64,000 nt of DNA, taken from positions 563,501-627,500 of the forward strand of contig NZ_CP071632.1 of the NCBI RefSeq assembly GCF_017357385.1, in the 5' to 3' direction. The notes beneath the pieces were generated by a model. The model saw only the letters and a list, made by a program, of their open reading frames with translations. It was not told the origin of the DNA and made no database searches. This document shows, one piece after another, positions 1,750 to 29,411 of the stretch; position 1 is the stretch's first letter; every line of letters begins with the position of its first letter. The position numbers were made by a program, and so were the translations under genes. The DNA comes from Rhizobium sp. NZLR1. GTDB lineage: Bacteria; Pseudomonadota; Alphaproteobacteria; Rhizobiales; Rhizobiaceae.

Positions 1750-1823
1750 GCGGGTGTAGCTCAATGGTAGAGCAGCAGCTTCCCAAGCTGAATACGAGGG
1801 TTCGATTCCCTTCACCCGCTCCA
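1750..1823 (+). tRNA. tRNA-Gly (anticodon CCC), CCA encoded
   Basis: A 74-nt cloverleaf begins GCGGGTG and ends CACCCGCTCCA, so the acceptor stem pairs. The anticodon loop TTCCCAA gives CCC, reading GGG codons. The T arm contains GGTTCGATTCC. It is very close in sequence to enterobacterial glyU. The last 23 nt are repeated perfectly at 31469-31491, so this tRNA is the integration site of the island; the tRNA itself stays intact. Confidence 0.97.
1801..1823 (+). repeat. attL: tRNA 3'-end half of the island's direct repeat
   Basis: A 23-bp segment from the T-arm TTCGATTCC to the encoded CCA, identical to 31469-31491. It is the left junction, next to the integrase. Confidence 0.93.
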
Positions 1824-2010: not shown

Positions 2011-3207
2011 ATGGCGCTGACAGACGTTCAGATTCGAAATGCCAAAAAGTCCGAAAAGCCCTACAAACTGCCGGACGGTAAGGGCCTTTATCTGTATGTT
2101 TCGAAGGCCGGCGGGAAATCATGGAGGCAGGATTATGCCTACTTTGGCAAGAGAAAGACGCTCACGCTCGGCGCCTATCCTGCCCTTGGGCTGGCTGAAG
2201 CCCGTGTCCGGCGAGATGAAGCAAAGAAGAAGCTGTCGGAGGGATTAGACCCGTCGCTGGCGAAAAAGCGCGAGCAATTGGCCTCCAAGGCGGCGGCCGG
2301 GAACACCTTCGGACTAATTGCTGATGAATTCATCGCGAAGCTGCGTCGTGACAAGCGAGCTGAGCCGACCATCGATAAGAACACTTGGATGCTAAAGGTG
2401 CTTGCGAAGAGGCTTTCGCCATATCCGATAACGCAAATCTCCGCGAAAGACGTTTTAGACGTGCTCAACGTGATCGAAAAAAGTGGACGCGTTGAGAGTG
2501 CACTCGCCACGCGTTCAGCAATAGGGCGCGTTTTTCGATTTGCCATCGCAACCGCAAGAGCGGAAAGCGATCCGACCTCGGCATTGCGAGGCGCCCTCCA
2601 GCGCCATGTTCCCGTCAGTCACCCAGCGCTCACGACCCGCAAAGACCTTGGTGGCCTTATGAGGGCGATCTATGGTTATAATGGCTGGGTTTCGCTTGTT
2701 GCGGCGTTGAAGATTCAAGCTCTTTGCTTCGCTCGACCCGGGGAAACCCGTTCAATGGAATGGTCGGAGCTTGACCTCGCAAAAGCGGTTTGGACCATCC
2801 CTGCCGCAAAGACAAAGATGCGCCGCGAGCATCATGTTCCCCTTTCTCGTCAAGCCATCGAGGTCATCAAACTGATGAAGGACCTGTTCGGGGACAAGCC
2901 ACAGGTTTTTCCATCGATGATGTCTGGCAAGACGTTGCTTTCGGAGAATTCAATGAATTCTGCCCTGCGCCGTATGGGAGTAGGGGAGGAGGAGCATACC
3001 GCACATGGCTTTCGCTCGTCCGCAAGTAGCATCTTGAACGAGTCGGGCGCATTTAGCGCCGATGCGATTGAGGCCCAACTGGCGCATTTAGATACGAGGG
3101 AGGTGCGCCGGATCTATAATCGCGCGACCTATTGGGATGAGCGGGTGAAAATGATGCAGTGGTGGGCAGACATGCTTGATGAGGAGCGAATGCGAAGGTC
3201 GGCCTAA
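2011..3207 (+). CDS. P4-type tyrosine integrase
   Basis: 398-aa site-specific recombinase that should integrate and excise the island at tRNA-Gly. The N-terminus (about 1-90) is the DUF4102 arm-binding domain with LPDGKGLYLYVSKAGGKSW and LGAYPALGLAEAR. A core-binding SAM-like segment follows (about 100-200), then the catalytic domain. Visible active-site residues are the Arg in ARPGETRSMEW, HGFR (H-x-x-R), the His in QLAHLD and the nucleophilic Tyr in RRIYNRATYW. Length is normal for the family. The gene lies 188 bp downstream of the tRNA and points into the island, as usual for such elements. Confidence 0.96.
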   Translation: MALTDVQIRNAKKSEKPYKLPDGKGLYLYVSKAGGKSWRQDYAYFGKRKTLTLGAYPALGLAEARVRRDEAKKKLSEGLDPSLAKKREQLASKAAAGNTFGLIADEFIAKLRRDKRAEPTIDKNTWMLKVLAKRLSPYPITQISAKDVLDVLNVIEKSGRVESALATRSAIGRVFRFAIATARAESDPTSALRGALQRHVPVSHPALTTRKDLGGLMRAIYGYNGWVSLVAALKIQALCFARPGETRSMEWSELDLAKAVWTIPAAKTKMRREHHVPLSRQAIEVIKLMKDLFGDKPQVFPSMMSGKTLLSENSMNSALRRMGVGEEEHTAHGFRSSASSILNESGAFSADAIEAQLAHLDTREVRRIYNRATYWDERVKMMQWWADMLDEERMRRSA

Positions 3208-3292: not shown

Positions 3293-4516
3293 CTATTCTG
3301 CCGCCTCTGCGAAGGCTCGCCGATTGGACATCGCAATGTGTAAAGCGACACGTTCGCCAATCGCGCGTGCTAAGGGCGCGGGAACAGCGTTCCCCACTTG
3401 CTCGTACTGTAAGCCCAGTTTGTCGCCGGCGAAGCGGAATGTGTCGGGAAAGCCCTGTAACCTAGCGGCTTCCCGTACGGTGATCGTTCGATCTTGATGC
3501 GGGTGGACATAAGCTCCCCAATGGGGGTCACATTTAGTCAGGAGTGTCGACGCTAACCCCGTGCTGGCCAGTCTTCCGTACCGTTTCGTATGATCGGAGG
3601 GGTGCGCTCTCTGCATTCCGGCAGTCAGCAATTCACGCGGTATATTTCGCCAATTACCTCCCTCCGGAACGTGCTTCATTCGGTTCAAATTCACATCGGT
3701 CAGCCGATGACAAACATGATTGAATAACTCTGCGCTTCCCTCTCGGGCCTGGATTTGGAACTCGCTGCTGGGCTCAACGGCACTATAAGCAGATACCTGG
3801 AAATTGCAGCCATTTTCTACTGCAGGCAGGTCCCCGATTGCCTCGCCGACCGTGATTGGATTTGGCAACCACATATCGCCTTGAGCTGTACTCTTAGCTG
3901 CGCGATGAGTGGCGATTGGAATCAGTTCGGCGGCCTGACCAATTCGGGACGCCAAAATAAATACTCTTTTTCGAACTTGCGGAGTTCCGAATTCTTCGGC
4001 TGAAAGGGTTACTACCTCGCAATCGTATTTCATTTTTAAGAGTGTTGAGCGGATTTCTTTAACGACCTTCCCGCCCCCGATTGTCAAAATGCCGGGCACA
4101 TTCTCCATTACAAGGCATTTTGGCTTTATCTTTGAAACGATCTTCAGGTAGCAACTGAACAGCCGCGCTCGATCGTCCTCGGCATTTCGCTGATGGTTAT
4201 TATAGCTGAAGGACTGGCACGGCGGTCCCCCGATTATCGCATCGACTTGCGCCGATTCGGCTTCGCGACCGACCATAAGCTGGGCGGCCGTGACCTTCGA
4301 TACTGGGCCTTGAAGAAATGTGCTTTCGGGAAAATTAAGCCGAAATGTTTCGCCGGCTGCTGCGTCAAAGTCGTTGGCAGCCAGAATGGCCCACCCCGCC
4401 TGTTTAAAGCCTATCGCGAGGCCGCCAGCACCTGAGAACAAATCGATGCAGCGGGGACCAGAGGGGAGGGGGGCAGATGGCTGATATACAGCTAATTTCT
4501 GGTCTTCCTTTCCCAT
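3293..4516 (-). CDS. DNA cytosine-5 methyltransferase
   Basis: 407-aa enzyme that methylates C5 of cytosine in DNA using S-adenosylmethionine. Motifs appear in order: I DLFSGAGGLAIGF, IV GGPPCQSFS with the catalytic Cys, VI ENVPG, VIII QVRKRVF, and IX/X REAARLQGFP with QVGNAV. The stretch between VIII and IX should hold the target-recognition region, so the target site cannot be read. It is divergent from the ParB/SNF2/Vsr operon and part of a five-gene cassette at 3293-8772. It probably protects host DNA from a partner nuclease, most likely the HNH protein at 7828-8772, but that pairing is inferred. Confidence 0.95.
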   Translation of the reverse strand: MGKEDQKLAVYQPSAPLPSGPRCIDLFSGAGGLAIGFKQAGWAILAANDFDAAAGETFRLNFPESTFLQGPVSKVTAAQLMVGREAESAQVDAIIGGPPCQSFSYNNHQRNAEDDRARLFSCYLKIVSKIKPKCLVMENVPGILTIGGGKVVKEIRSTLLKMKYDCEVVTLSAEEFGTPQVRKRVFILASRIGQAAELIPIATHRAAKSTAQGDMWLPNPITVGEAIGDLPAVENGCNFQVSAYSAVEPSSEFQIQAREGSAELFNHVCHRLTDVNLNRMKHVPEGGNWRNIPRELLTAGMQRAHPSDHTKRYGRLASTGLASTLLTKCDPHWGAYVHPHQDRTITVREAARLQGFPDTFRFAGDKLGLQYEQVGNAVPAPLARAIGERVALHIAMSNRRAFAEAAE

Positions 4517-4647
4517 TCAGTCCTCAAAATCCAATTCGCCTGACTGTGGGCGTCCAAAATCATTGTGAGTCGCGTAACTTTACCACATCCGCAACGGCAG
4601 GTGAATCGAGCGCTTCAAAAGACGTGTAAAATTCGTTACATCCTCTC

Positions 4648-4692
4648 TTGATACGATGCACTATCCTTGCTACATCTTGCTCAGGCAAGATG
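4648..4692 (+). promoter_or_regulatory. Candidate promoter with overlapping inverted repeat upstream of the ParB-like gene
   Basis: TTGATA (4648-4653) and TACATC (4671-4676) are 17 bp apart and resemble sigma70 boxes. The perfect inverted repeat CATCTTGC-TCAG-GCAAGATG (4673-4692) overlaps the -10 and lies about 18 bp before the start codon. It could be an operator for self-control of the cassette, or an RNA hairpin near the ribosome-binding site. Confidence 0.45.
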
Positions 4693-4710
4693 TGAAAGTA
4701 AGGAAAAGCG

Positions 4711-5958
4711 ATGATGGATGCTGTAGCAAAATTAGAAGTTCCGCCCGCCCAAGCCGAGCGGGTCCTTTATGAAAAGATCGGTAATACAGAGTGGGAACTG
4801 CGCGAAACGCGCCTCGACGTCCAGCAAGACGTTGCGCTGTGGGCAGATAACCCCCGTCTTCAAACGACGGCAATGGAGGGCTTTTCTTCGGAAGCCGACC
4901 TGGAAGAGGGTCTACGATTGACTCCTGGCTACGATGGCTTGCGCAAATCCATTCAAGAGATTGGTCAGATGCAGTCCATTTACGTGCAGCGAACCACAAC
5001 CGGAAAATACCTAGTCCTAGAGGGGGCGACACGGGTCACTATTTTACGGGAGTTGGACCGCAAGTTCACGAGTGGCAAGAACCTCGGCGTCTTTCGTTAT
5101 GTCCAGGCGAAAGTCCTTCCTCAGAATTTTGGTGAGCGAGATGTTGCTATCCTCCTAGCCGGTATTCACGTGCGCGGATCCGGCGTTCGCGATTGGGGAA
5201 GGTACATCGAAGCTAAATTCATTTATGAGACGGTGGTGGGACGCCCGGGTCACCCCCCGCTGATGAATCAGGCCACGTTGGCGGATAACATGGGGAAGTC
5301 TGAGTCCTGGGTTGCTCGGCTTAAAAGCGCTTACGAATTCGCTCTCAAATTTGTTGAACACGTGGATGATGAACCTAATCCGAAGAAGCTTGCCGCCGAA
5401 AAATTCAGCGTTCTTGAAGAAATCAGCAAGGCTCGTGTGATTGGCTCGCAACTCCGAGATTTCGAAAACACGGCATACGACGAACTGCGAAAAGAAGTTT
5501 TCGACATGGTCCGCGATGACGTTTTCAAGGAGTACCGTGACGCTAGGTTCTTAAAAGAATTCCACGACGATGAAGACGCTTGGTCGCAGCTGAAATCAGG
5601 CGAAAAACACGTTGCAAACAAGCTCGCGCAGCAGACGCAGGATAAGAGCAGCAGTCCTAAAGCAAAGATCTCTGCAATTCCACAGATAGTTCGCCGGGCG
5701 ATCGACAGGGGAGAAGACGGCTTCGATGACGATGACATCGCAAGCCTCCAGCAGACTATCGACCTCATTGAAGACAAAGTTCACGATGGCGTTCATCCCT
5801 ATCGTCTCGCACTCAAGAAGGCGACGAGAACACTCAACAAGGCTAGCCGCGCCGACGTAGTCGATCTTCAGCTTTCGGACGTCACAGAATTTCGAGAAGC
5901 CTTTGATTACTTCAATGGACTGATCGGCCAACACCATCAGGCCGGAGGAACGAAATGA
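4711..5958 (+). CDS. ParB-like (ParB/Srx fold) protein in a restriction-like cassette
   Basis: 415-aa protein. Residues about 75-120 have the ParB N-terminal pattern YDGLRKSIQEIGQMQSI followed by YLVLEGATRVTIL, where EGATR takes the place of the usual EG-x-R-R nucleotide-binding box. A helix-turn-helix-like stretch follows (NQATLADNMGKSESWVARL, about 189-207). The remaining C-terminus is charged and helical. No partner ParA is present, so chromosome partition is unlikely. ParB-fold proteins can bind or hydrolyse CTP, and in defence contexts may act as nucleases or DNA-loading factors. The stop overlaps the SNF2 start (ATGA), so the two are translationally coupled. Function is inferred from context only. 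Confidence 0.75.
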   Translation: MMDAVAKLEVPPAQAERVLYEKIGNTEWELRETRLDVQQDVALWADNPRLQTTAMEGFSSEADLEEGLRLTPGYDGLRKSIQEIGQMQSIYVQRTTTGKYLVLEGATRVTILRELDRKFTSGKNLGVFRYVQAKVLPQNFGERDVAILLAGIHVRGSGVRDWGRYIEAKFIYETVVGRPGHPPLMNQATLADNMGKSESWVARLKSAYEFALKFVEHVDDEPNPKKLAAEKFSVLEEISKARVIGSQLRDFENTAYDELRKEVFDMVRDDVFKEYRDARFLKEFHDDEDAWSQLKSGEKHVANKLAQQTQDKSSSPKAKISAIPQIVRRAIDRGEDGFDDDDIASLQQTIDLIEDKVHDGVHPYRLALKKATRTLNKASRADVVDLQLSDVTEFREAFDYFNGLIGQHHQAGGTK

Positions 5959-7355
5959 CATTCCAGCTGCTTAGACATCAGCACGAAGGTGTCGGCTTCT
6001 TGATAGAACGAGGGGTTGGGCTCCTTGCTTTCGAGCAGGGGCTTGGCAAGACATTCGTCGCGATTGAAGCATTTCGCAGACTTCATGATGAAGGTCGTGC
6101 CGATAAGTTGCTCGTTATCTGTCCAAATTCGCTTAAGCGCAACTGGGTCGCAGAACTCGCGAAATTTGCCCCTGTATTGTCTGTCGCAGTGGCAGAGGGT
6201 ACACCCAAGCAGAGACGTTCCACGTTTCAGCAATCACGTGCTCGGGTGATCGTAACGAGCTATGAAACGTCTCGCTCTGAAACCACTGCACTTCTCGCTT
6301 TGGCACAGCGACAACGCACTGTGCTGGTTCTCGATGAGTCCCATGCTGCCAAAAATTGGCGCTCTCTCACCTCGACTGCCGCTCGGACCATCGCGCCTTT
6401 TTGCGAGTTCAGGTGGCTGCTGTCTGGCACTCCAGTGACGAACACGGCAACAGACCTGTTCACACAGGTTGAGATAATTGAGCCGGGGCGCGGCCTGCTC
6501 GGCTCTCTCGAGTCCTTCACCGCCCAACTTGAGGAGGACCCTGCGGCTTCGTTCGCAAAAGATGTTATAGATCGACTCGTCTTGCGCCGGACAAAAGACC
6601 AGTGTCTCGATCTCCCGCAGAAATCATTCGTTGACATCCGTATCGAGATGCAGCCGTGGCAGAGGCGTCTGTACGACGAAATGCGTGACGAAATGGTTTG
6701 TGAAATTGAGGCCATGAGCGGTGAGCAGTATCGTGCGTTTGCTCCCACGGCTTTGGCGAAACTCACGCGGCTCATTCAACTTGCGTCAAATCCATGCCTC
6801 GTTTTTCCTGAACTGGAGCGTTCTCCAGCAAAATTCGAGGCTCTCGATGGTATTATCGCGGATATAATGTCTGTACCGAACAGGAAGGTAATTCTGTGGT
6901 CCAATTACATCCGTTCGATCGAGAGCCTGTTAGCTCGAATTCAAGGTTCAGTGGCTATCTACGGTGGGACGCCGCCTTCAGAACGCCAGGAAATTGCCGC
7001 TCGGTTTCAGAATGATCCAAACGTTCGCGTGCTCATTGCAAATCCAGCTGCGGCCGGAACCGGTTTCACGCTGACCGCGGCGAACTATACGATTTACGAG
7101 TCACTGTCATGGCGTTACGACCACTATGCTCAAAGCCAAGATAGAAACCACAGGATTGGCCAAACTCAACCGGTCACCTATCTACGGCTCCTGGCTTCAG
7201 ACACGATTGAGGAGGCTATCGTTTCAGCATTAGAGCGAAAGTCGGCGCTGGCGCGAAGCCTCCTCGGTGATGAGGGTACGGGCGATGCTATCGCTCAGCT
7301 CACAAAAGCGGAAATGTGTCTGCTTTTGAAGACCAATCGTCTTCCTGAAAAATGA
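5955..7355 (+). CDS. SNF2-family DEAD/DEAH helicase-like ATPase
   Basis: 466-aa double-stranded DNA translocase of the SNF2 family. Walker A is EQGLGKT (about 29-35), the Walker B variant is VLDESHAAKN, and motif III is LLSGTPV. The C-terminal RecA lobe has VILWSNYIRSIE, NPAAAGTGFTL and the SNF2 signature QDRNHRIGQ. It is short, with no added specificity domain, so it probably works through partners: the overlapping ParB-like protein upstream and Vsr 16 bp downstream. In restriction systems such ATPases move along DNA to bring nucleases to targets. That role is inferred. Confidence 0.9.
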   Translation: MTFQLLRHQHEGVGFLIERGVGLLAFEQGLGKTFVAIEAFRRLHDEGRADKLLVICPNSLKRNWVAELAKFAPVLSVAVAEGTPKQRRSTFQQSRARVIVTSYETSRSETTALLALAQRQRTVLVLDESHAAKNWRSLTSTAARTIAPFCEFRWLLSGTPVTNTATDLFTQVEIIEPGRGLLGSLESFTAQLEEDPAASFAKDVIDRLVLRRTKDQCLDLPQKSFVDIRIEMQPWQRRLYDEMRDEMVCEIEAMSGEQYRAFAPTALAKLTRLIQLASNPCLVFPELERSPAKFEALDGIIADIMSVPNRKVILWSNYIRSIESLLARIQGSVAIYGGTPPSERQEIAARFQNDPNVRVLIANPAAAGTGFTLTAANYTIYESLSWRYDHYAQSQDRNHRIGQTQPVTYLRLLASDTIEEAIVSALERKSALARSLLGDEGTGDAIAQLTKAEMCLLLKTNRLPEK

Positions 7356-7370
7356 AACAAGAGGGGCAGA

Positions 7371-7814
7371 ATGGCCGATCGGATTAGTCCCGAGCAGCGA
7401 TCGAGGAATATGTCGAGGATCAAGGGACGGGATACCAAACTGGAAAGAAAGCTTCGATCTTGTTTGCATAAAGCGGGGCTTCGCTTCCGCGTCTGCCGAA
7501 CGGATCTTCCTGGACGACCTGACATAGTGTTTCCACGTCAGAAATTGGCAATACAGGTCCGGGGATGTTTTTGGCATCAGCATCACAACTGTAGCGGCGG
7601 TCGAACGCCAGGAAGCAACCAAAGCTACTGGGCGCCAAAGCTGCAGCGGAACGCTCAACGTGACGCGGAGAAGGATGTCGAGCTAATCGGTCTCGGCTGG
7701 CAAGTGTTAGTCATTTGGGAATGTGAGATGCGCGCGCCTTCGGACGTCGAGAAAATCACTGGGAAAGTCGCAAGTAGAATCGGGAAGAAGGTTGAAATTC
7801 CAGAATCTTCTTAA
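7371..7814 (+). CDS. vsr: Very-short-patch mismatch endonuclease (Vsr)
   Basis: 147-aa nuclease that nicks next to T:G mismatches left by deamination of 5-methylcytosine. Family features are SPEQRSRNMSRIKGRDTKLE near the N-terminus, PGRPDIVFPRQKLAIQVRG with the metal-binding Asp, CFWHQHHNC, YWAPKLQRNAQRD, and LGWQVLVIWECEM. Length is normal. Start at ATG 7371. It lies 15 bp after the SNF2 gene, probably in one operon with ParB-like and SNF2. The cytosine-5 methyltransferase across the divergent promoter supplies the modification whose decay Vsr would repair. Its N-terminal Vsr fold could alternatively serve as the cassette's restriction nuclease. Confidence 0.95.
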   Translation: MADRISPEQRSRNMSRIKGRDTKLERKLRSCLHKAGLRFRVCRTDLPGRPDIVFPRQKLAIQVRGCFWHQHHNCSGGRTPGSNQSYWAPKLQRNAQRDAEKDVELIGLGWQVLVIWECEMRAPSDVEKITGKVASRIGKKVEIPESS

Positions 7815-7827
7815 TGCTGGCAATGAG

Positions 7828-8772
7828 TTAAGGCAAAAAGACGTTCTCTCGATGAAACGACAAATAGCTGGCCTGATCACCGGTGAATTCGCCACAATTT
7901 TTGGCGCATGCGTCAACTAAGCCGAGCCTGTGGAGATCGAGCGGGTTGAGACGAGGCGACACAAGCACTTCGCCATCCGCTTTGAAGCTGATGAGGCCAC
8001 GATCAAACAAGCGATCTACATGTGGAGCAAGTAACAGGCCATTCGCGCCGTCAAGACGCTCGGCCGCGCTAGCACATGTACGCCAAGGTTTGATATGACT
8101 TGCTACAAGCAGGCGCGGACTTTCAACACCAGTCAGCCGACAGCCTCTTTCATGCTCCAACACGCGCATACGAAATAGCCCCTGTCCCCGGCGGGCTAGT
8201 ACGAGTTGCTGTTTGGTCGTCGCGTCGAGAGCAGAATTTTCGCTTAGCGCTATCTGCGCCAAATCATCCAAATATTGGAGCCGCAGATCGGCATCGCTGC
8301 CATCTATTTCTATTTGTACAGCTGGAGATGGAACGCCGATAAGGAGTTCAACAACATCCGCATTTATCTCCGCGAGATATGCTTTTTGATGCCCGTAGCC
8401 TGTCACCGGATTGATCGGGGAGTATTTCAACGGCAATAGGGGCCTCAGTTCCCCGATTCGATCCTTTGGGCGTATGGGACGGGCGAGCTGTGTCCAAGCC
8501 ATCGGGAGCAGCCAACCATCACTGCTCCAATTGTCACCGGTAGCTCCAAAGCTAGACGGTTTCGATACAGCGCTGGCGAAATCCAGAACGAGCCCCACGT
8601 GGCCGATAGCAGAGTTCGAAAACGACAATACTGTATCCCCCGGCTCAGCTACCCTCATATTTTCATAAAACTGACTGCGTGCGCCATTCGCTTCGCGCTT
8701 TGGCGACCATAAATAACCATCACTAATCTCTTGTCGCGCCGTCTGCCTATGGTTGACCCACCAATACCGCAT
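7828..8772 (-). CDS. EVE/PUA-like plus HNH endonuclease, putative modification-sensing restriction enzyme
   Basis: 314-aa protein. The N-terminus (MRYWWVNHRQT, GYLWSPKREANGARSQFYENM, PGDTVLSFSNSAIGHVGLV) resembles the EVE/PUA domain that reads modified bases. The C-terminus is an HNH nuclease with GCRLTGVESPRLLVASHIKPW and NGLLLAPHVDRLFDRGLISF, carrying the His, Asn and His of the motif. The same architecture occurs in modification-dependent enzymes such as the EVE-HNH group. The ATG at 8772 follows CGGAGAG; a GTG at 8781 is possible. It faces Vsr with a 13-bp gap, so it closes the cassette. Cutting modified DNA beside a 5mC methyltransferase would be self-harming unless the EVE domain reads another mark. 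Confidence 0.85.
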   Translation of the reverse strand: MRYWWVNHRQTARQEISDGYLWSPKREANGARSQFYENMRVAEPGDTVLSFSNSAIGHVGLVLDFASAVSKPSSFGATGDNWSSDGWLLPMAWTQLARPIRPKDRIGELRPLLPLKYSPINPVTGYGHQKAYLAEINADVVELLIGVPSPAVQIEIDGSDADLRLQYLDDLAQIALSENSALDATTKQQLVLARRGQGLFRMRVLEHERGCRLTGVESPRLLVASHIKPWRTCASAAERLDGANGLLLAPHVDRLFDRGLISFKADGEVLVSPRLNPLDLHRLGLVDACAKNCGEFTGDQASYLSFHRENVFLP

Positions 8773-9038: not shown

Positions 9039-11033
9039 ATGGCGACTCCAGGCATACATCCCAATTTTGCCTATGACATTTACAGCGGCGAAGAGCAGAA
9101 GATTATCAAGAGGTTCTCGACGGAGTGGTTCATTACGTCCGGGATCCAGCCGCTAACGCTTTCGGAGAAAAGCACCTATCGCGCATTCCTGGGGAAGCCC
9201 TGTGATCCCTCGGCCAATATGTTCAACTTGGAGCGGGAGATAATTGCAGTTTTCAGTAACTATGACGAATTTGAAGTGCGAACTATTGATGCGTTTGAGG
9301 CGGCCGCGGCTCGCTTCAATTCGCTAAGGACAGACCCAATCTGCCGTGTCCTCATCAGTCGTGATCCGAAAATAGTAGAGCGGATAAAGGACGTATTAAA
9401 GAATGACCCTGAGTTACCCGTAATCATACCATTCACTTACGATGAACTTATCAATAACAGGCAAGATACTCTAATTATAAACCGGTTTAGGAGCCATTTT
9501 TTCTCCCGAGACTTGTTTGCATTCGAAAGTCCTCTGAAAAGGGATACTTATTTTTTCGGCCGAACCGACTTAATAAATAAAATCCTGTCTAGGAATAGGT
9601 CAAATGAGAATTCTGCGCTCTTCGGCCTCAGGCGCAGTGGTAAGACGTCGATCGTATTCGGCATGGAACGGGCAAGTAAGCTTAATGGGCAGGCATTCGT
9701 CACGATCGATTGCCAAAATCCCTCCGTTCACCAAAGAAGGTGGTTCCAGCTTCTGCCGTACTTGTTGACACAGGCGGCAAGTAAATACAATTTGAAAAAG
9801 AGTATAATAGACATTGAGAAATATACTGAGTTAAATGCTGCTGATCAATTTTTTGACGACGTGAAGGCGGTTTACAGCGGCCTGAAGAAGCAACCAATTG
9901 TCATAGCGTTTGATGAGATTGAGAGAATTTCTCCGAAAACTGGCTCATCCCTACATTGGGCAGACGGGCAAGACTTTGTTTTCTTTTGGCAGGCGGTGAG
10001 ATCTGCCTTTCAGCGCCACACCGGTGTATTTTCGTTCTTTTTAATTGGTACCAACCCGCAGTGTATTGAGACGCCTTTCATCCATGGACACGATAACCCG
10101 ATTTTCAACGGGGTGCCCATTGAGTATATTCCAGGGTTCGATCTTCAGCAGACATCAGAAATGGTAAAGAAGCTTGGTCTTTATATGGGCCTCAAGTTTT
10201 CAGATGCTATTTGCGCAAAGCTGCACGAGGATTTTGGGGGGCATCCATATCTAGTTAGGCACATTTGTTCAATTATTAATAAAAACTCTCCCAATAGCCG
10301 ACCGATAGATGTAGACAGAACTATTTATGCGAAGTCGAAATCGGAGTTCGATGTAAATTACGCGAATTACACGGACATGATACTTGATGTATTGGTCAGG
10401 GATTTCCCGGATGAATATGTTATGCTTAACGCGCTGGCAAACGAGGATTTGGAGTTGTTCAATTCGTTTGCCGAAGAAAGCGCTCTCATCAGCCATCTCG
10501 TCGGGTATGGTTTGATTGCCAAAGGGCTAAATGGTCATTATTTCAAGATCGAGTCAGTGCGCGAGCATTTGAAAAAGAAGACAAAATTTACAAAACTCGT
10601 CAAAACAAATGAAGAGCGCTTGGTCGAGGTGGCGGCCAGACGAGCAGTGCTCGAACCAGCGATGCGTCGCCTGATCCTGGCGATATTTACGGCGAACTAT
10701 GGCGGGAGAGCACAGCAAGAATCAGCGTCAATCATAGGCGGCATTAGCCTAAAGCGGATGACTGAGCGCGGGTTTTCTCGTGCTCTTCAACCTACCTCAA
10801 TTGATCTAAATCTCAGCGATCTCGCAAAACTTATTTCGGAGCGATGGGCTGTGTTTGAAAAATTGTTCACAATCAAAAAAGTCGAGTTCGATTTCTATAT
10901 CGAGGCAATTCGTATCGTTCGTACGGAAGAGGCCCATTCGGGAGAAGTGACAAACGATCAGTTTATTCAAGCTAGGATAGCGTTCTCAAAAATTGAAGAT
11001 GAGCTTCGTACGATAGGATTTCTATCGGCTTAG
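9039..11033 (+). CDS. AAA/STAND-type ATPase with putative C-terminal HEPN RNase domain
   Basis: 664-aa cytoplasmic protein. Residues 1-150 form an uncharacterised alpha/beta region. Walker A is LFGLRRSGKTS (about 195-205) and Walker B is PIVIAFDEIERI, followed by a winged-helix-like segment (GHPYLVRHICSIINKN and after). The last about 120 residues are helical and contain R-T-E-E-A-H (R628, H633), matching the R-x4-6-H catalytic motif of HEPN RNases, as in Swt1-like domains. This pairing is typical of abortive-infection proteins in which an ATPase sensor controls an RNA-cutting toxin. It stands alone between the restriction cassette and a resolvase, and is more A+T rich than its neighbours. 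Defence role inferred. Confidence 0.75.
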   Translation: MATPGIHPNFAYDIYSGEEQKIIKRFSTEWFITSGIQPLTLSEKSTYRAFLGKPCDPSANMFNLEREIIAVFSNYDEFEVRTIDAFEAAAARFNSLRTDPICRVLISRDPKIVERIKDVLKNDPELPVIIPFTYDELINNRQDTLIINRFRSHFFSRDLFAFESPLKRDTYFFGRTDLINKILSRNRSNENSALFGLRRSGKTSIVFGMERASKLNGQAFVTIDCQNPSVHQRRWFQLLPYLLTQAASKYNLKKSIIDIEKYTELNAADQFFDDVKAVYSGLKKQPIVIAFDEIERISPKTGSSLHWADGQDFVFFWQAVRSAFQRHTGVFSFFLIGTNPQCIETPFIHGHDNPIFNGVPIEYIPGFDLQQTSEMVKKLGLYMGLKFSDAICAKLHEDFGGHPYLVRHICSIINKNSPNSRPIDVDRTIYAKSKSEFDVNYANYTDMILDVLVRDFPDEYVMLNALANEDLELFNSFAEESALISHLVGYGLIAKGLNGHYFKIESVREHLKKKTKFTKLVKTNEERLVEVAARRAVLEPAMRRLILAIFTANYGGRAQQESASIIGGISLKRMTERGFSRALQPTSIDLNLSDLAKLISERWAVFEKLFTIKKVEFDFYIEAIRIVRTEEAHSGEVTNDQFIQARIAFSKIEDELRTIGFLSA

Positions 11034-11070: not shown

Positions 11071-11673
11071 TTAGCTTTCGGTGAAGCTCTGTGAATCCCG
11101 TTTATCATGAATTTCATGGTCCTTCGCCGACATTTTTTCTAAGATTCGATAAACGTGCATTCGAGAGCACCCGATTGCCCGGGCGATCGCTGCTGGGCCG
11201 TGTCCGCGACGTCTTAAGCTCAGGACAGCGTCATAGTCGATACGCACAGCACCCCCCTTATAAACTCCGTCAGCCCTTGCTCGCGCGATTCCTTCCCGCT
11301 GGCGCTCTTTGATGAACCGGCGCTCCATCTCTGAGACCATTCCTAACACCGTCAAAATGACGTGCCCCATTTCCCCTCGGGTCGAGACATGCGGGTCGAG
11401 GACGGTAATGAAAGCCCCCCGCTGCTCACAATCATGGACGATGTTTAAGACGTCGCGGGTGTCGCGGCCGAGACGATCTAATCGCGTCACGACCAGTTCG
11501 TCGCCTTCTCTCAAAAACTCGATGATCGTCGCCAATTCCGTTCGACCCTCACGACTTGCACCAGATACCTTCTCCGCGCGCACGATTACGCAACCCTCAC
11601 CCCTGAGGCGTTGCTGCTGAATCTCAAAATCCTGATCGATCGTGCTTACGCGGGCATAGCCAATTTTTGTCAT
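11071..11673 (-). CDS. Serine recombinase (resolvase/invertase family)
   Basis: 200-aa site-specific recombinase. The catalytic domain begins MTKIGYARVSTIDQDFEIQQ with the nucleophilic Ser in ARVST. The Arg-rich motif is VTRLDRLGRDTRDVL, and the E helix contains GMVSEMERRFIKERQREGI. A C-terminal helix-turn-helix (GHGPAAIARAIGCSRMHVYR) is the DNA-binding domain. I start it at ATG 11673, since an upstream in-frame codon at 11685 gives a non-conserved extension. It resembles Tn3-type resolvases, but no Tn3 transposase is nearby, so it is an orphan or the trace of a lost transposon. Confidence 0.93.
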   Translation of the reverse strand: MTKIGYARVSTIDQDFEIQQQRLRGEGCVIVRAEKVSGASREGRTELATIIEFLREGDELVVTRLDRLGRDTRDVLNIVHDCEQRGAFITVLDPHVSTRGEMGHVILTVLGMVSEMERRFIKERQREGIARARADGVYKGGAVRIDYDAVLSLRRRGHGPAAIARAIGCSRMHVYRILEKMSAKDHEIHDKRDSQSFTES

Positions 11674-12207
11674 GTGTAACCTCAAGCTTTATGCACGAGG
11701 CTACCGTGTCACAAATAGTCGAAGTCAAGACCGATGTGACGGTCGATCGCGTAACGTGGGCATTGTCACTCGCGGGTATACTCAAAAGTTACGATTGGTT
11801 GGCAAAGCGGTTGGCTGCTCGATGTGTCTCGATAGGCACTTCGTGATTCCTGGGGTGACGGGGTCGATGGCGCGAGCTAGACGTATGGATCCTCCCCGCC
11901 TCCGGGGCCACTCGCGAAAGACGGCCACGCAGCTTTGCGTTCTTCCGCTACGAGCGAGTATTGCTCAGACTTCCACTGCATGCCGCCTGCTTGGGTAGTG
12001 GTTTTATTTGCAACTGCGGGCACCAGCTATCAAGCTTCCACTTAGCTCACCGCGTGAATCTTAGAAGTTGCGTGTTCGGTGGCTCAACAGTTGCAAGCGC
12101 TTGAATAGCTGTCTGCGACGTCCTGGTCGCGTTCGCGTGGCCGACGCGAGACGCCAACGAACACCCTTCACTTTCGATAATTTCTCTGGCCCTTGCTATG
12201 CAAACCT
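11674..12207. other. 534-bp stretch without a convincing gene
   Basis: Between the resolvase start and the left end of the IS3 element. Open frames here show no recognisable motif or good ribosome-binding site. It may be the remains of DNA associated with the resolvase. It supplies the left ACCT target copy at 12204-12207. Confidence 0.5.
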
Positions 12208-12270: not shown

Positions 12271-12537
12271 ATGAAGAAGCAGAGATTTACAGAAGAGCAG
12301 ATCATCGGTGTGCTGCGTGAGCAGGAGGCTGGCGCAAAGGCGGCTGACCTCTGCCGCAGACACGGAATTTCAGAAGCGACGTTTTATAATTGGAAGGCCA
12401 AATACGGCGGCATGGAGGTGTCCGAGGCGAAGCGGCTGAAGGCGCTTGAGGACGAGAACGCCAGGCTGAAGAAGCTACTGGCCGAACAGATGCTTGATGC
12501 AGCCGCGCTCCGCGAGCTTCTTGCAAAAAAATGGTAG
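12271..12537 (+). CDS. IS3-family transposase OrfA (helix-turn-helix subunit)
   Basis: 88-aa N-terminal part of the IS3 transposase, which binds the element's ends. It begins [19 protein letters not shown] and has the insE/tnp_8 helix-turn-helix [19 protein letters not shown], then a leucine-zipper-like helix ([18 protein letters not shown]) for dimer formation. It ends in AAAAAAATGGTAG, so a -1 slip on the A run (12525-12531) would fuse it to OrfB. Length is normal for the IS407 group. Confidence 0.95.
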
Positions 12538-13460
12538 GGCCTGCCGCCAAGCGTGAAGGCGTCATGCATCTGAAGGCCGTCATGGGTCTTTCGGAGCGGC
12601 GGGCCTGCCAGATCATATCCGCCGACCGTAAGTCGGTGCGTTATCGGTCAAGTCGACCGCCGGAGGTAGAATTGCGGGCGAAGCTGCGCGACCTCGCCAA
12701 TGAGCGGCGGCGTTTCGGCTATCGGCGACTGTTCGTCCTGCTTCGGCGGGACGGAGAACCGTCCGGGGTCAATCGCATCTACCGGCTCTACCGCGAGGAA
12801 GGACTTTCCGTTCGCAAGCGCAAAGCCAGGCGGCGTGCTGTCGGCACGCGTGCACCGATCCTGGTCGAAGCGAAGGCCAATGCCCGCTGGTCGCTGGACT
12901 TCGTGCATGACCAGTTTGCTTGCGGCAGACGCTTTCGCATCCTCAATGTCGTCGATGATGTGACGCGCGAATGCCTGGCGGCGATCCCGGACACCTCGAT
13001 CTCCGGTCGTCGCGTCGCTCGCGAACTGACGACCCTCATCGAACGGCGCGGCAAACCGGGAATGATCGTCTCCGACAACGGCACGGAATTCACCTCGAAT
13101 GCCATCCTTGCCTGGTCGAAGGATCACAAGGTCGAGTGGCACTACATCGCGCCGGGAAAGCCAATGCAAAACGGTTATGTCGAGAGCTTCAACGGCCGGA
13201 TGCGCGACGAGCTGCTCAACGAAAGCCTGTTCTTCGGCCTCGATCATGCCCGAAGTGCCATCGCTGAATGGGCCGACGATTACAATCATTTCCGACCACA
13301 CTCATCGCTCGGATACCAGACCCCGGCAAGCTATGCCGAAACCATCGCCGCAACCGGCTCCAACGCTGCGCAAGATGAAAGCTTCGCGTTTCCGCCGGTT
13401 GCTCACACCGCGCCACTTGGCGTATTCAAAACCCCCGAGGCTCTAATCGCAGCTGGATGA
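12531..13460 (+). CDS. IS3-family transposase OrfB (DDE integrase core)
   Basis: 309-aa catalytic part. An HTH_21-like segment ([18 protein letters not shown]) precedes the rve integrase core. The DDE triad is visible: Asp in [11 protein letters not shown], Asp in IVSDNGTEF, and Glu in [17 protein letters not shown]. The end of the fold, [17 protein letters not shown], is also typical. It overlaps OrfA by 7 bp in the -1 frame and is probably made mainly as an OrfAB fusion by frameshifting. No truncation is seen. Confidence 0.96.
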
Positions 13461-13596
13461 AAGTTCAGTGGCAGGTCAACCTCTGATGAGTTGTTCTGCG
13501 ACGCTGGCCCTACGTCATAAGGATTGGTTGCCAGAATATCACTAAATTCTATTATACACCCAATGCGATTGCTTGATGGGAAATTGGAGCCCGGTC

Positions 13597-16347
13597 ATGC
13601 GCACTTTGCTTCTGGGGGTATTGTTATTCACTTCGACTTTCGATGCTACAGCGATAGCCGCTGATCGCGCGACCTCTTCTCAAGTAACCGAACTAGTTAC
13701 AAAAGTGGGCATATCTAGCGTGAACATTTGGCTTAAGGAGCAAAGAGTGGCACTGCCACCATCTACGCTGTCTACGCAAATGCGGAGTGAAATTCTAGAG
13801 CGGACACTTGACCGCTATGCGGCCATTCGGAACGGATACTACGCGACCAGCCAGAATGTAAGTTGGGCTGGCCTTGGAGCGGTAGGGACTTTTGGCGCAA
13901 TTGCTCTCTATGGGGGGCCTCAGGCGGTATTTACGGTCCCAGCGACAGTAATGGCGGCGGTTGCGGGCTCAGTTACAGATAACGTCACTGCCCACCTTGA
14001 GAGCACGGGCGCAGAGGTCAGCAGGCAGTATCTTGCGGCAAATAAGAGCGCGATCCTTCAGCAGCTTGGAGTTAGAAGCTACGCCGAGCTAGGAAACAAT
14101 CCTCAAGATATCAATGATCGCCTGAACAATGCGAGCGACCTGATTGCCGATCTGAGGGATCGTGCTGGCGGTGATCAAATATTGGCTGACCACGCTCGCG
14201 ACTTGCTCTCGGATACGCTTGTATCAACAGCCGGGGCGACGTTAGATACCCTCGATTTGCAAGGAAGAGAGCTTTCGTCGCTAAGTGATGAGTTCTACAA
14301 ATTTGTCGACAAATCGCAAGATTTTGAAACGGAAACGATTGCAGCTCTAGAAAAACACACAAGGGAGATCGGGGCTATAAGCTCTCAAGTCGACGACCTA
14401 ACGGCCGCAGTGGCTGATGTCGATGAACAAATGAAACAGCAAGGAAAGAACCAAGCTTTCATTTCCGACTTTATTTTTGATCAAATGGCTCCGGACCAGA
14501 AAGCCGACGGACTCCAGAGAGGGTTTATGTCGGAGCGCTTTGCTTGCCCAACTGGCGAAAGGGAGTGCGCAGGTTCGAAGATGAAGGCCAGCCTTGTTTC
14601 GCGTTTTAGGGCAGAAGCTCAACTAAAATCATCGATAGCGACGGTAAGTTCAATTGCAGGTGGATTGGCCGACGTCAGCACGATCGCGAGAAATCTCGGC
14701 ATTGATAGCCCGGATCTGAATAGAGCAGTCGAGGTCGGCAACGCTGCAACAAATGCGCTGGCAGCGTATGCGTCAGGAAACCCGATCGGCGCAGTTGCGG
14801 CCATAACAGGCGTATTCGCTCAGAAGCGAGATCCCGACGCCGAACGTTTTCAAGTCATGATGAGAGCCTTAGCCCAAATCGATCATAAGCTGGACATCAT
14901 AATTGAAAATCAAAAGGCGCTTATGGAGGCCGTGAACCAGCTCTCTGTTCAGCTCGCGACGGACTTTCAAGCACTAAACGAACATCTAGCTGCCATTAAG
15001 TGGGAACAAGACCGCATGAGTGAGGCGGTCCGGCAACTGATTTGGAAGGATTGGCGATCCTGCTACGACTTTGTGAAAGAGGCTTCCGAACGTTCGGCTG
15101 ACGGTAAATTTATTCACATCGACGAACGGTCACGTCGATTCAGGACATTCCAAGATATGCAAACCGTGTTTGGAAGAGCTGGAACAAGTTTTAGAGCGTG
15201 CTTGGAAACTGTTAGAGGCGGCCTAGCTAGTCTGGATCGGGTAGCGCAATTTGGCAATTTTATTGATGCTCGTTTGGCTTATAACGATCTTACTGTCATA
15301 GACCCGAGGACACTTGCTTTAGGCGAAGAGAAAGACAAGTGGTCCTCGGCGTTGCAAAGCTATGAAACTGAATTGTTCGGGCCAGCCCATACGCTAACGA
15401 CACTGTATCTCTTTCATGAGGGCGTGGACCCAGCCACCGGCCTTTCACTATTGAGTACGCCCGCGCCGAGCCTAGCTGCTTTAGACGAGCAACTTAAAAC
15501 GTTCAGGTCTAACGCGTTGCAGTGCTATTCAGGGTCGGAGAGGGACAAGCGCTTCTACCCGCTAATCTGCGGCGATCAGAATGCAGCACCGGGAGAGAAG
15601 GCTAATTTTCTCCTTCAGCGGGCCGTACTCGCCGATTTCGCTGATGATATTGCCCAGTGGATCGTACTGATATCGCAGATGGCAGATTTATACGACCAGC
15701 AAGATCAAAGAATATACACATCCATCCCGGACCTGCTCCAGCATAACGGCGGATCAGGCGTTGGCCGTGATCTAGTAGCTAAAGCCGTAGTTATTCTGGA
15801 CCTCGCGATCTCCTCTTACGATCAGACGTACGGTGGGATACCAGCAAAGGGCGCTGTTAAAGTCTTGGATGAGACAACGGTATCGAGTGGTGTCGACGAT
15901 ACTTGGCCGAGCAAAGTCAAAGTGATTAAGCTCCTTTTGCAAAATTCATACCTTGCCCAGAACGTAGCGACGGTCCTTTTAAATAGTCATCGCAAAGACA
16001 AGAACAGTCCCCTTGACGCCAGCATATATCGCCTCGCGTATGAGTATGCCGAGCGGTCTGCGGCACACAATGACTTTCTCCTAACAGGACTGTTCGACAG
16101 CACATTGGTCTTTACCGTCAATGCTGACGGCGTTCCGTGCTTGCATCTTGCAGCTGCGGACGCTTCAATCGATATTCCGCTACCACCGCCTACTCAACTT
16201 GTTGAGGGGCGTTTTGTATTTCCCCAGCGCTTTTTCAAGCTTCTTGCGACACGCGATCTGCTGGTTGATCGACTGTTTGATTATGCCGTCCTCGATGAAA
16301 CTCCCCAAATGCCTGGTGAGGCAGTTGCTGCGGCGCTCGTTCGATAG
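13597..16347 (+). CDS. Exported 916-aa protein with hydrophobic and coiled-coil segments, unknown
   Basis: A signal peptide (MRTLLLGVLLFTSTFD, cleavage near AIAA-DRA) sends it to the periplasm or beyond. The ATG at 13597 follows GGAG at a good distance; upstream in-frame starts (13573 TTG, 13576 ATG) would hide the signal. After the signal lie a glycine-rich hydrophobic stretch (WAGLGAVGTFGAIALYGG, about 85-125), a long heptad-like region, then another weakly hydrophobic stretch (NALAAYASGNPIGAVAAITG) followed by coiled coil with repeated I/L spacing (LDIIIENQKALMEAVNQLS). Hydrophobic hairpins set in coiled coils recall alpha-helical pore-forming toxins, but there is no firm family match. It lies 118 bp after the IS3 element and 12 bp before the next gene. 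Confidence 0.8.
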   Translation: MRTLLLGVLLFTSTFDATAIAADRATSSQVTELVTKVGISSVNIWLKEQRVALPPSTLSTQMRSEILERTLDRYAAIRNGYYATSQNVSWAGLGAVGTFGAIALYGGPQAVFTVPATVMAAVAGSVTDNVTAHLESTGAEVSRQYLAANKSAILQQLGVRSYAELGNNPQDINDRLNNASDLIADLRDRAGGDQILADHARDLLSDTLVSTAGATLDTLDLQGRELSSLSDEFYKFVDKSQDFETETIAALEKHTREIGAISSQVDDLTAAVADVDEQMKQQGKNQAFISDFIFDQMAPDQKADGLQRGFMSERFACPTGERECAGSKMKASLVSRFRAEAQLKSSIATVSSIAGGLADVSTIARNLGIDSPDLNRAVEVGNAATNALAAYASGNPIGAVAAITGVFAQKRDPDAERFQVMMRALAQIDHKLDIIIENQKALMEAVNQLSVQLATDFQALNEHLAAIKWEQDRMSEAVRQLIWKDWRSCYDFVKEASERSADGKFIHIDERSRRFRTFQDMQTVFGRAGTSFRACLETVRGGLASLDRVAQFGNFIDARLAYNDLTVIDPRTLALGEEKDKWSSALQSYETELFGPAHTLTTLYLFHEGVDPATGLSLLSTPAPSLAALDEQLKTFRSNALQCYSGSERDKRFYPLICGDQNAAPGEKANFLLQRAVLADFADDIAQWIVLISQMADLYDQQDQRIYTSIPDLLQHNGGSGVGRDLVAKAVVILDLAISSYDQTYGGIPAKGAVKVLDETTVSSGVDDTWPSKVKVIKLLLQNSYLAQNVATVLLNSHRKDKNSPLDASIYRLAYEYAERSAAHNDFLLTGLFDSTLVFTVNADGVPCLHLAAADASIDIPLPPPTQLVEGRFVFPQRFFKLLATRDLLVDRLFDYAVLDETPQMPGEAVAAALVR

Positions 16348-20182: not shown

Positions 20183-21232
20183 TTAGGGTTTGAAGCACGC
20201 CTTGAATTTGGAGACCGGATCGGCTGCCCCACCGAGGTCGATAACGACGCGTTCACCCTTGGCACTCGTCACGGCCAGGTCTTTCCCCTGAGCCACCTGA
20301 TCAAGAATTGCCGGAGGCATCGGACCGAAGCTGTGCCATGTGAAATAATCGTCCTGATCGCCCTCGACGACATACGCCGGACTATCGTCGACATGCCACG
20401 TTGCCTTTGTTTCGCCGCTGAATAGGCTGCTGACAAATCCCACGAGTTCCTTGCCCGGAGAACCGATGAAGCCCACCATCGTTATCCCGCGATGGGTTTG
20501 GACAAAGCATGTCGATCCCCAATCCTCATCACGCGTGTAGAATTCCCAATTGGTGGCAGGCTGAGGCCGGTCAGCACTTGAAGATTGGCCGGAAGGAGTA
20601 ACCGACGAAGACGCGGCGGCAAACGGCGAAGTGTCTGTGTTGCCCTCGGTCGCACTCGCATGCAGTCCTCTCAGATCGACGTCACAGCGGTTGAAAGCCT
20701 CGTTGAACTCGATTGTTTGGAAACGATCCAGCGCCGGCACAACCCACATTGGCTCATTGCCGCCGAATCTGACCGTGAGAGGCGGAGGTTGCCGCGAGCT
20801 GAATACCTGTTGAATGAGAGTGCTGAGGACAACGCTGGTTTGGTCGAAGGACCCTCGAGGAAATGCGTAGTAAAGCTCCTCCGCACTGATCGCCTTCATC
20901 GTGACGTCGGTACCCAATGCAGCCACGGTCATAAAGGCGACTGAGGTTGTCTGATTGAGCGGTAACTTCCAATTGTCCTTGTGAATGCGGATAGCCATCG
21001 TCACCGCGTCTGCAGCTCCGATCTGCGTTTCGATGGATATCGCTCTTGTATCCCAAAGCGACGTGCGAATGGCGCAATATGGGCGTACGCCCTGCGCGTC
21101 CGGCACATGCAGCACGACCGCCCAAGGCTTGCTGTTGTAGTAGTTCGTCTCACTCGCCACGGCACCGCACGCGGCGACAAGTGAAAGCGATAGGCCGAGG
21201 GCAAGGGGCTTTAGCTGATCAGACAGGCGCAT
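20183..21232 (-). CDS. Putative lipoprotein with IalB-like C-terminal part, unknown
   Basis: 349-aa exported protein. The N-terminus ends in a lipobox (LSLVAAC, lipidated Cys at about residue 22). A central Ser/Thr/Pro-rich linker (about 200-225) joins two domains. The second, from NWEFYTRDEDWGSTCFVQTH onward, resembles the beta-rich invasion-associated IalB fold of alphaproteobacteria, and the first half looks similar, so it may be an internal duplication. It overlaps the upstream small membrane protein gene by 14 bp, so they form one operon. Probably acts at the envelope; function unknown. Confidence 0.75.
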   Translation of the reverse strand: MRLSDQLKPLALGLSLSLVAACGAVASETNYYNSKPWAVVLHVPDAQGVRPYCAIRTSLWDTRAISIETQIGAADAVTMAIRIHKDNWKLPLNQTTSVAFMTVAALGTDVTMKAISAEELYYAFPRGSFDQTSVVLSTLIQQVFSSRQPPPLTVRFGGNEPMWVVPALDRFQTIEFNEAFNRCDVDLRGLHASATEGNTDTSPFAAASSSVTPSGQSSSADRPQPATNWEFYTRDEDWGSTCFVQTHRGITMVGFIGSPGKELVGFVSSLFSGETKATWHVDDSPAYVVEGDQDDYFTWHSFGPMPPAILDQVAQGKDLAVTSAKGERVVIDLGGAADPVSKFKACFKP

Positions 21233-27072: not shown

Positions 27073-27134
27073 ATGATGATCCTACTGCTCAAGTAGCAAG
27101 AATCTGCGCTTGCGCCGGTGCTCCGCGCCCACAT

Positions 27135-27719: not shown

Positions 27720-27749
27720 ACATTACTCCACTGAGTGCGAGAAAATATT

Positions 27750-29401: not shown

Positions 29402-29411
29402 CGCATCGACC

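Follow-up and report, generated by a model that had tools for sequence, protein, structure and literature searches.

A candidate modular defence cassette that joins a methyltransferase of NotI-neighbour type to a ParB-like protein and an SNF2 ATPase in a Rhizobium integrative island

We analysed a window of 64,000 nt (the whole stretch of DNA under study; coordinates below are window positions) from Rhizobium sp. NZLR1 (NZ_CP071632.1), in which a compact group of genes looks, from its sequence, like an undescribed variant of bacterial defence against foreign DNA. Genes were called from open reading frames combined with Pfam, PADLOC and NCBIfam scans, for which the seven proteins encoded between 2011 and 11033 were used. 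The group begins with a C5-cytosine DNA methyltransferase (MTase; 3293-4516, minus strand; PF00145, E 6.6e-67; motifs DLFSGAGG, GGPPCQ, MENV, QVRKR and GNAV) related to those of NotI-type pairs. Divergent from it across a gap of 194 bp lie, all on the plus strand, the genes for a 415-aa ParB-like protein with a predicted KorB/Noc-type fold (4711-5958; AlphaFold2 and Foldseek; 450 homologs), a minimal SNF2 ATPase of 466 aa (5955-7355; PF00176, E 1.3e-35; motifs GLGKT, DESH and QSQDRNHRIGQ) and a 147-aa Vsr-family endonuclease (7371-7814; TIGR00632, E 5.3e-43; PF03852, E 9.2e-26). The ParB-like and SNF2 genes overlap by 4 bp (ATGA), and SNF2 and Vsr are separated by 15 bp. Convergent with the Vsr gene across 13 bp is a gene for an EVE-HNH modification-dependent (Type IV) endonuclease of the VcaM4I family, which we regard as accessory (7828-8772, minus strand; start at ATG 8772 or GTG 8781). 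An earlier note, made from the letters of the DNA, had proposed these five genes, their order, their packing into 5.5 kb and their gaps, all of which were confirmed by the open reading frames, the Pfam, PADLOC and NCBIfam scans and the fold search for the ParB-like protein. In the 6.86-Mb genome PF00145 and Vsr are each represented by a single gene and the window SNF2 protein by a single match (E ≤ 0.001), and because all three lie within these 5.5 kb the grouping is not a matter of chance.

Conservation of the gene set was assessed with the ParB-like protein alone as query, which gave 450 relatives; alignment A1 holds 32 of these ParB-like proteins. We compared 19 loci (numbered with the prefix L where they have to be told apart), comprising the window, 17 genome-contig loci (54 stretches matched the pattern) and one viral-contig locus (83 stretches). 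Around the ParB-like gene, the MTase is present in 18 of the 19 loci (all but L015), SNF2 in 17 (it is missing from L015, and the contig of L018 ends before it), Vsr in 12 and EVE-HNH in two (the window and L006); L016 and L018 are short contigs, and L016 is cut short. The MTase and ParB-like genes stand head-to-head with nothing recognised between them in 14 loci, and a nuclease-like gene lies between them in L011, L016, L017 and L018 (called below cut-off in L016 and by motif only in L018). We read the MTase, the ParB-like protein and SNF2 as the constant core of the cassette, with Vsr as a frequent and a further nuclease as a variable component. The earlier note had taken all five genes for one system and had set, beforehand, adjacency in related genomes as the test of this; four of the genes do co-occur as neighbours, and EVE-HNH falls outside the set, as described below. 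Absent from that note were the relation to NotI-type pairs, the change of nuclease between loci, the palindromic site and the island at tRNA-Gly, all reported here.

The records are mostly alphaproteobacterial by name, and contigs from metagenome-assembled genomes carry the labels Thermoanaerobaculia (L016), Bacillota (L017) and Bryobacterales (L018). The cassette is rare, being found in 2 of 394 genomes of the family, 3 of 385 of the class and 2 of 397 of the order, with the window counted each time; the four non-window matches were taken as L006, L007, L012 and L015 and were not counted again. Searches of plasmid records (72,556) and phage records (50,697) at E 1e-5 gave no match to the ParB-like protein. 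Pairwise protein distances, calculated without L016 and L018 and not corrected for phylogeny, correlated between ParB-like and SNF2 proteins (r 0.85, 16 loci) and between ParB-like protein and MTase (r 0.50, 16 loci), and, over 11 loci, between SNF2 and Vsr (r 0.90) and between Vsr and MTase (r 0.58). Vsr therefore tracks SNF2 more closely than the MTase, which linkage alone could explain because Vsr mostly lies in the SNF2 operon.

A nuclease-like gene besides Vsr was recognised in 13 of the 19 loci, with unrelated folds and with some weak calls (GIY-YIG in seven loci, NotI-family in two, EVE-HNH in two and other nuclease-like genes in two); none was recognised in L002, L005, L008, L010, L013 and L015, a statement that covers the neighbouring genes read or scanned and not every neighbour. 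A GIY-YIG-type family of about 283 aa follows Vsr in L003, L004, L007, L014 and L034. When L003, L007 and L014 were scanned with Pfam, only MUG113 in L003 scored above its curated cut-off; T5orf172 in L003 and each of the four scores obtained for L007 and L014 fell short. L004 and L034 were placed in the family by BLAST to L003 (76% and 69%). The GIY-YIG-type assignment of this protein is made for its C-terminal part, its reading as an EVE-GIY-YIG fusion having found no support (profile comparison with the EVE-HNH family, probability 0.1, thin alignment). The GIY-YIG gene of L016 was called below cut-off (PF01541, E 0.0015), and that of L018, for which there was no Pfam match, was read by eye from GVYLL...VFYAGRSERLKRRLGEH. 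A NotI-family gene is found in L011, where it separates the MTase and ParB-like genes (E 5.7e-97), and in L017, next to the MTase (E 1.2e-12); further DUF2130/PDDEXK-like scores in L017 were too weak and were not used. A 234-aa protein present in L009, and together with the GIY-YIG gene in L003 and L004, was called HNH-like by eye from CxxC...RDH and had no Pfam match (L003 and L009 scanned). L012 has a DUF4365 gene after SNF2 (E 6.6e-4, below cut-off) and an Mrr-type gene on the MTase side (E 6.9e-15, above cut-off). As side observations, L008 has a DUF3800 gene, and a gene in L010 resembles DUF262/GmrSD by eye.

Related MTases were found in 1355 plasmid records, of which 15 were listed and eight inspected (42-50% identity). 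A NotI-family restriction endonuclease is annotated adjoining the MTase in all eight, including L085 and L087, which were chosen with their NotI-family gene already known; the NotI pair of L087 also has Vsr. Cassettes and NotI pairs share a core of the specificity region, GG.W..IP..LL..GM..A...DHTKRYGR...T.LTKCD.HWG, which is slightly off in L018 (HTTRYGR); the single outgroup MTase has a different sequence there. In an MTase tree with midpoint root and a single outgroup, which left out L016 and included no other MTase type, the MTases of L011 and L017 cluster with two from NotI plasmids (80/91), and those of 14 cassettes lacking NotI make up a single clade (98/99) to which L018 is sister (98/97). 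By these sequences the MTase is of the NotI-neighbour type, related to the MTases of plain NotI-type pairs. Among the 19 loci only L011 and L017 have a NotI-family gene (Pfam on selected neighbours, and BLAST with these two, which do not find each other and thus limit its sensitivity), and the window's genome has no match to PF12183, the NotI-family restriction endonuclease. In five further NotI-family loci with short flanks, an MTase match was found in two and a ParB-like match in none. Identity to the window MTase across 16 loci was 43-69% in the specificity region and 48-73% in the rest (33% for the cut-short L016). Across loci with differing nucleases the specificity region is thus conserved almost to the level of the remaining protein, which makes it probable that the methylation target changed little when one nuclease gave way to another. 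We offer GCGGCCGC, the NotI site, as no more than a first guess at this target, since members of the NotI family vary a great deal among themselves (24-48% identity over the aligned parts).

Pfam on its own leaves the ParB-like protein unassigned, its best score (ParB_N, E 0.2) falling short of the cut-off, and a sequence search of the PDB gave no convincing chain (one chance-level row, E 0.92). Its AlphaFold2 model (predicted local distance difference test score 84.6; predicted template modelling score 0.69) was searched with Foldseek, and the first 24 rows were all ParB, Noc, KorB or Spo0J (E 3.6e-5 to 1.4e-3), with KorB 8qa9 at a template modelling (TM) score of 0.62 by target length. TM scores by query length were 0.18-0.35 across the ParB-family matches because only the N-terminal part of the protein matches, the helical C-terminal 150-200 residues or so lying outside. 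By model and fold search, the N-terminal part, including the helix-turn-helix region, is of ParB/Noc/KorB fold. The arginine of GxxR is invariant in the 32 aligned proteins. Profile alignment to 11 chromosomal ParB proteins (34 columns, low probability) places EGATR on AGERR, so that the Gly and Arg of ParB P-motif 2 are kept and the Glu, for which a functional role has been described (PMC8367383), is not; the ENxxR region reads IHVxG by eye. The profile of chromosomal ParB proteins excludes L050, L051, L054 and L069, in which a motif filter gave no usable open reading frame. PADLOC gave weak matches to PD-Lambda-5_A and PDC-M38A.

Between the MTase and ParB-like genes lies the palindrome ACATCTTGC-TCAG-GCAAGATGT (4672-4693, plus strand; pattern CTTGC-N4-GCAAG), a putative operator or parS-like site. 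An extra TTGC half-site stands exactly 10 bp upstream of the palindrome's own TTGC (4667-4670, plus strand), and a script placed a putative sigma70-like promoter for the ParB-like/SNF2/Vsr operon at 4648-4676 (plus strand; TTGATA-17-TACATC, with a weak -10). In 15 of the 19 loci a TTGC-N4-GCAA palindrome lies shortly before the ParB-like gene, matching CTTGC-N4-GCAAG without mismatch in seven, with one in seven and with two in one (L006). Descriptively, mononucleotide shuffles of the same 135 bp gave an equally good site in 0-0.65% of cases for 14 loci and in 2.9% for L006. Across the 15 loci an extra TTGC lies upstream at exactly 10 bp in 12, at 20 bp in four and at 29 bp in three, GCAA lies 9 bp downstream in six, and the best candidate TTGACA-like hexamer per locus falls 28 or 36 bp before the palindrome in nine. 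We regard the palindrome as the likely operator of the KorB/Noc-fold ParB-like protein, autoregulatory in appearance. The gap between MTase and ParB-like genes also holds a strong inverted repeat of 9-10 bp in L003 (9639-9667) and L004 (9663-9689), possibly a terminator or small RNA.

Plasmids of Bradyrhizobium, Mesorhizobium, Rhizobium and Roseomonas (L021 and L093-L096) carry another kind of operon, in which ParB-like proteins (22-31% identity to that of the window where matched; no match in L095) are accompanied by SNF2 (29-36%). The order in L093, L094 and L096 is ParB-like, small protein, SNF2, ParB-like, DGQHR, radical SAM and ATPase, of which L021 and L095 are variants; the DGQHR protein is DpdB-related in L093, a radical SAM annotation is present in four of the five, and the ATPase is GHKL-type in the two scanned (L021 and L093). 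L021 and L093-L096 have no MTase match, and the palindrome was not found in L021. The PADLOC candidate PDC-M38A is matched by the ParB-like groups of cassette and plasmid operon alike, and because the pairing also occurs in these operons, the ParB-like and SNF2 proteins form a recurring unit. A description of the plasmid operon was not found, no literature search having been aimed at it. Phage and plasmid matches of SNF2 itself are generic (at most 36% identical). Vsr, aligned to 1cw0, keeps RPD and GCFWH, and may either cut as part of the complex or act in repair alongside the MTase. At the positions aligned with the functional T63-H64 of E. coli Vsr, the window, L002, L003, L004, L006, L007, L010 and L014 have V-R (QVRGCFWH), possibly a mark of a subfamily.

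The EVE-HNH protein matches VcaM4I over its full length (6yex; phmmer against the PDB, E 4.5e-79), and the EVE identity assigned in the earlier note was right. VcaM4I is a Type IV enzyme that cuts DNA containing 5-methylcytosine (5mC) or 5-hydroxymethylcytosine (5hmC), digesting 5hmC DNA faster; its description gives P24, W82 and Y130 as the base pocket, Q10, T11, E15 and W22 as contacts and H224, N241 and D250 as HNH residues (PMC7897488). In the alignment to 6yex, the window protein keeps T11, E15, W22, P24, W82 and Y130 of the pocket as well as all three HNH residues. Among 23 relatives including the window (alignment A3), E15, W22, P24, W82 and the equivalent Tyr are invariant and T11 is at least 90% conserved, and the equivalent His, Asn and Asp of the HNH active site are invariant. 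By homology, the window protein is predicted to cleave 5mC or 5hmC DNA. The earlier note had the MTase mark self and the HNH and/or Vsr nucleases cut, but VcaM4I, the nearest relative of solved structure, does the opposite of a nuclease that 5mC self-marking keeps off (PMC7897488); its faster digestion of 5hmC than of 5mC DNA could explain how EVE-HNH coexists with a 5mC MTase. In 11 other EVE-HNH loci (L022-L027 on plasmids and L041-L045 in genomes), none had a ParB-like or SNF2 match; partners in the same locus were a Vsr match in L022, L023, L024 and L042 and an MTase match in L022. Since EVE-HNH occurs in two of the 19 loci and elsewhere without ParB-like protein or SNF2, it is not core, and an independent Type IV enzyme is the reading that suits it best.

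The cassette is the first cargo of an integrative island of about 29.7 kb, as seen from a tRNA-Gly (CCC) gene that serves as insertion site (1750-1823, plus strand; ARAGORN), a tyrosine integrase gene (2011-3207, plus strand; PF13356, PF22022 and PF00589), an exact 23-bp direct repeat and a shift in GC content. The left attachment repeat is the 3' end of the tRNA gene (1801-1823, plus strand) and the right copy lies at 31469-31491 (plus strand), which sets the island at about 1824-31491. Measured per kb, GC runs at 0.60-0.62 over the first 2 kb, at 0.45-0.63 (mostly 0.50-0.58) in the island, at 0.65 right after 32000 and at 0.57-0.68 beyond. Beside the cassette, a gene of lower GC (0.45) at 9039-11033 has matches to AAA_35 (E 6e-6), nSTAND6 (E 5e-5) and HEPN_Swt1 (E 0.007), all below cut-offs, and is possibly a STAND- or Abi-like defence gene. 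The island also carries resolvase, IS3-type (rve) and IS66 transposase genes at 11071-11685, 12271-13460 and 17510-19180, and long genes at 13573-16347, 20183-21232 and 25443-29476. Five long island proteins (924, 349, 380, 297 and 279 aa) had no Pfam match at E 0.001; 28637-29476 shows a GHG...EAC pattern by eye and could be caspase-like.

The architecture is well supported; that the cassette acts in restriction, and what the ParB-like protein and SNF2 do in it, we infer from sequence. The chances seem to us evenly balanced that the locus descends from restriction-modification (RM) and serves as a mobile and modular defence cassette, in which case a system of NotI type would have gained a ParB-like/SNF2 module and come to exchange its nuclease. 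In such a cassette, the MTase would mark self DNA at a NotI-like site, and the ParB-like protein would bind the palindrome via its KorB-like helix-turn-helix and repress the operon until self DNA is methylated, comparable to the timing role of controller proteins elsewhere. The same protein would also serve as a DNA-loading factor for the SNF2 motor, which would scan or move along unmethylated DNA and recruit Vsr, the further nuclease or both. EVE-HNH, encoded convergently, would be a separate Type IV enzyme giving additional protection from phages with 5hmC-type DNA. A more specific version is possible, and we hold it only tentatively: the sequence-reading nuclease of a NotI-type RM system was displaced by a ParB-fold/SNF2 platform that senses and travels on unmarked DNA, self is set by the conserved MTase, a plug-in nuclease of unrelated fold cuts, and the ParB-like protein doubles as controller through its own operator.

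Several observations weigh against the defence cassette or parts of it. Six of the 19 loci show no nuclease besides Vsr among the genes read or scanned, and L005, L008, L013 and the solo L015 have not even Vsr, so that restriction there would need an unseen nuclease; several of the nuclease calls were made on scores below cut-off or on a motif. Clamp behaviour of the ParB-like protein is doubtful because the Glu of P-motif 2 is replaced and ENxxR is not recognisable. The palindrome pattern was derived from the sequences that were later scored with it, which is why the shuffle figures are descriptive. In L015-L018 the 120 bp that precede the ParB-like gene contain no clear palindrome; L016 carries a copy with one mismatch farther out, inside or ahead of its GIY-YIG gene. 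Counts over the whole genome are close, at 16 for the pattern and 13 for its reversed control, so the cassette palindrome is not one of a large set, and it could be bound by a host protein or act as RNA. Support for the grouping of L011 and L017 with NotI plasmids is moderate (80/91), with long branches for L022 (the outgroup) and L087. The specificity region falls below the rest of the MTase in several loci (43 versus 59% in L018), and a changed methylation target is conceivable in those where its identity is lower.

The foremost rival is a module for regulation or maintenance of methylation, in which the ParB-like protein and SNF2 serve the MTase through expression control or by clearing proteins off DNA to let new sites be methylated, restriction being left to an independent neighbouring nuclease or to none. 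We think this unlikely, although it would fit a triad far more constant (18 and 17 of the 19 loci) than any type of nuclease (at most seven), the presence of this triad without Vsr or recognised nuclease in L005, L008 and L013, and the conserved palindrome in the start region of the operon. It accounts less readily for the nuclease-like gene besides Vsr in 13 loci, for the genes that intervene in L011, L016, L017 and L018, among which a nuclease-like one is found each time (below cut-off in L016, by motif in L018), and for plain plasmid NotI pairs, which manage with MTase and nuclease alone.

It is improbable that the locus is a set of independent genes gathered in a defence island, with C5 MTase and Vsr left over from a restriction system, the ParB-like/SNF2 pair unrelated to them and EVE-HNH as a Type IV enzyme. 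The island with its tRNA-Gly, integrase and attachment repeats, the clear independence of EVE-HNH and the distant ParB-like/SNF2 relatives without MTase in rhizobial and Roseomonas plasmid operons are all compatible with it, but the MTase accompanies the ParB-like gene in 18 of the 19 loci, across several phyla by label and head-to-head in 14, the distance matrices correlate, and the genome has its single MTase, Vsr and SNF2 match here. That the ParB-like protein and palindrome are a partition remnant of a plasmid or integrative and conjugative element, stabilising the mobile element, is suggested by the ParB/KorB fold, the upstream palindromic site and the mobile-island location but is very hard to credit, given constant partners that are MTase and SNF2, no ParA-type match in the seven proteins scanned and no ParB-like match in the plasmid and phage records searched.

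Should the locus be a defence cassette derived from a NotI-type system, it would place stages side by side from two-gene to multi-component RM: plain NotI plasmid pairs, NotI with ParB-like/SNF2 (L011 and L017) and cassettes in which NotI was not seen and other nucleases stand instead. A ParB-fold protein would then have a likely role in defence, with a defined candidate DNA site, and the reading predicts a 5mC motif, a 14-bp operator and an exchangeable nuclease. The version in which the nuclease was displaced would make the system a ParB counterpart of the GHKL (MORC) restriction systems.

In the open PMC literature, which leaves subscription papers mostly outside, no paper was found that has MTase, ParB-like protein, SNF2 and Vsr together, and nothing was found on PD-lambda-5. 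The cassette set is not described in the available parts of papers on EVE (PMC7641849, a survey that names EVE-HNH and EVE-GIY-YIG), Dnd (PMC10853773), BREX (PMC12839542), polyvalent proteins (PMC5512222), HEPN (PMC3710099), RR-like/paraMORC (PMC8011034) and shared defence domains (PMC10952713). Likeness to VcaM4I and other EVE-HNH enzymes (full-length homology, with pocket and catalytic residues kept; PMC7897488) is limited to the accessory gene and does not extend to the cassette.

Among the best 25 of 41 PADLOC matches, SNF2 matches models of ZorD from Zorya I (E 2.3e-60), DpdE from Dpd (1.2e-52), DrmD from DISARM (2.9e-27) and BrxHII from BREX type 3; among the best 25 of 64, the MTase matches DruM2 from Druantia (1.1e-100) and DrmMII from DISARM (6.7e-60), below the generic Type II MTase (2.1e-111). 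The cassette differs from all of these systems in its bare SNF2 of 466 aa and in the presence of the ParB-like protein and Vsr, and DrmA/B/C, ZorA/B/C, DpdA and PglZ are absent from the PADLOC matches listed for the seven proteins. DISARM is defined by the helicase DrmA, DrmB (DUF1998) and DrmC (PLD), none of which was matched in Pfam by the seven proteins either; the earlier judgement that the locus is not DISARM therefore holds for the proteins scanned.

With the CTP-dependent clamps KorB, Noc and ParB, the ParB-like protein shares its N-terminal fold including the helix-turn-helix, the GxxR arginine and a palindrome near the promoter, and it differs in the replaced P-motif 2 Glu (GERR), the unrecognisable ENxxR, the unmatched C-terminal part and the lack of a ParA among the genes seen. 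MORC/paraMORC operons, as described by Iyer et al. 2008 (PMC2292703), contain a C5 methylase, a superfamily-II helicase (SWI2/SNF2 in one group), Vsr and, in some cases, HNH- or EcoRII-like nucleases. The cassette has in common with them the C5 methylase, SNF2-type helicase, Vsr and HNH-type nuclease; their constant component is a GHKL ATPase, whereas the cassette has a ParB-fold protein, the seven proteins having no Pfam match to HATPase/GHKL and the word ParB being absent from the main text of that paper (PMC2292703). The closest likeness in the MTase is to NotI-type RM, composed of a C5 MTase and a PF12183 restriction endonuclease: the MTases are 42-50% identical and share the core DHTKRYGR...LTKCDPHWG, a NotI-family gene persists in L011 and L017, and Vsr accompanies the pair in L087. 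The differences are that PF12183 is missing from the window's genome and that the cassette adds a ParB-like protein and SNF2.

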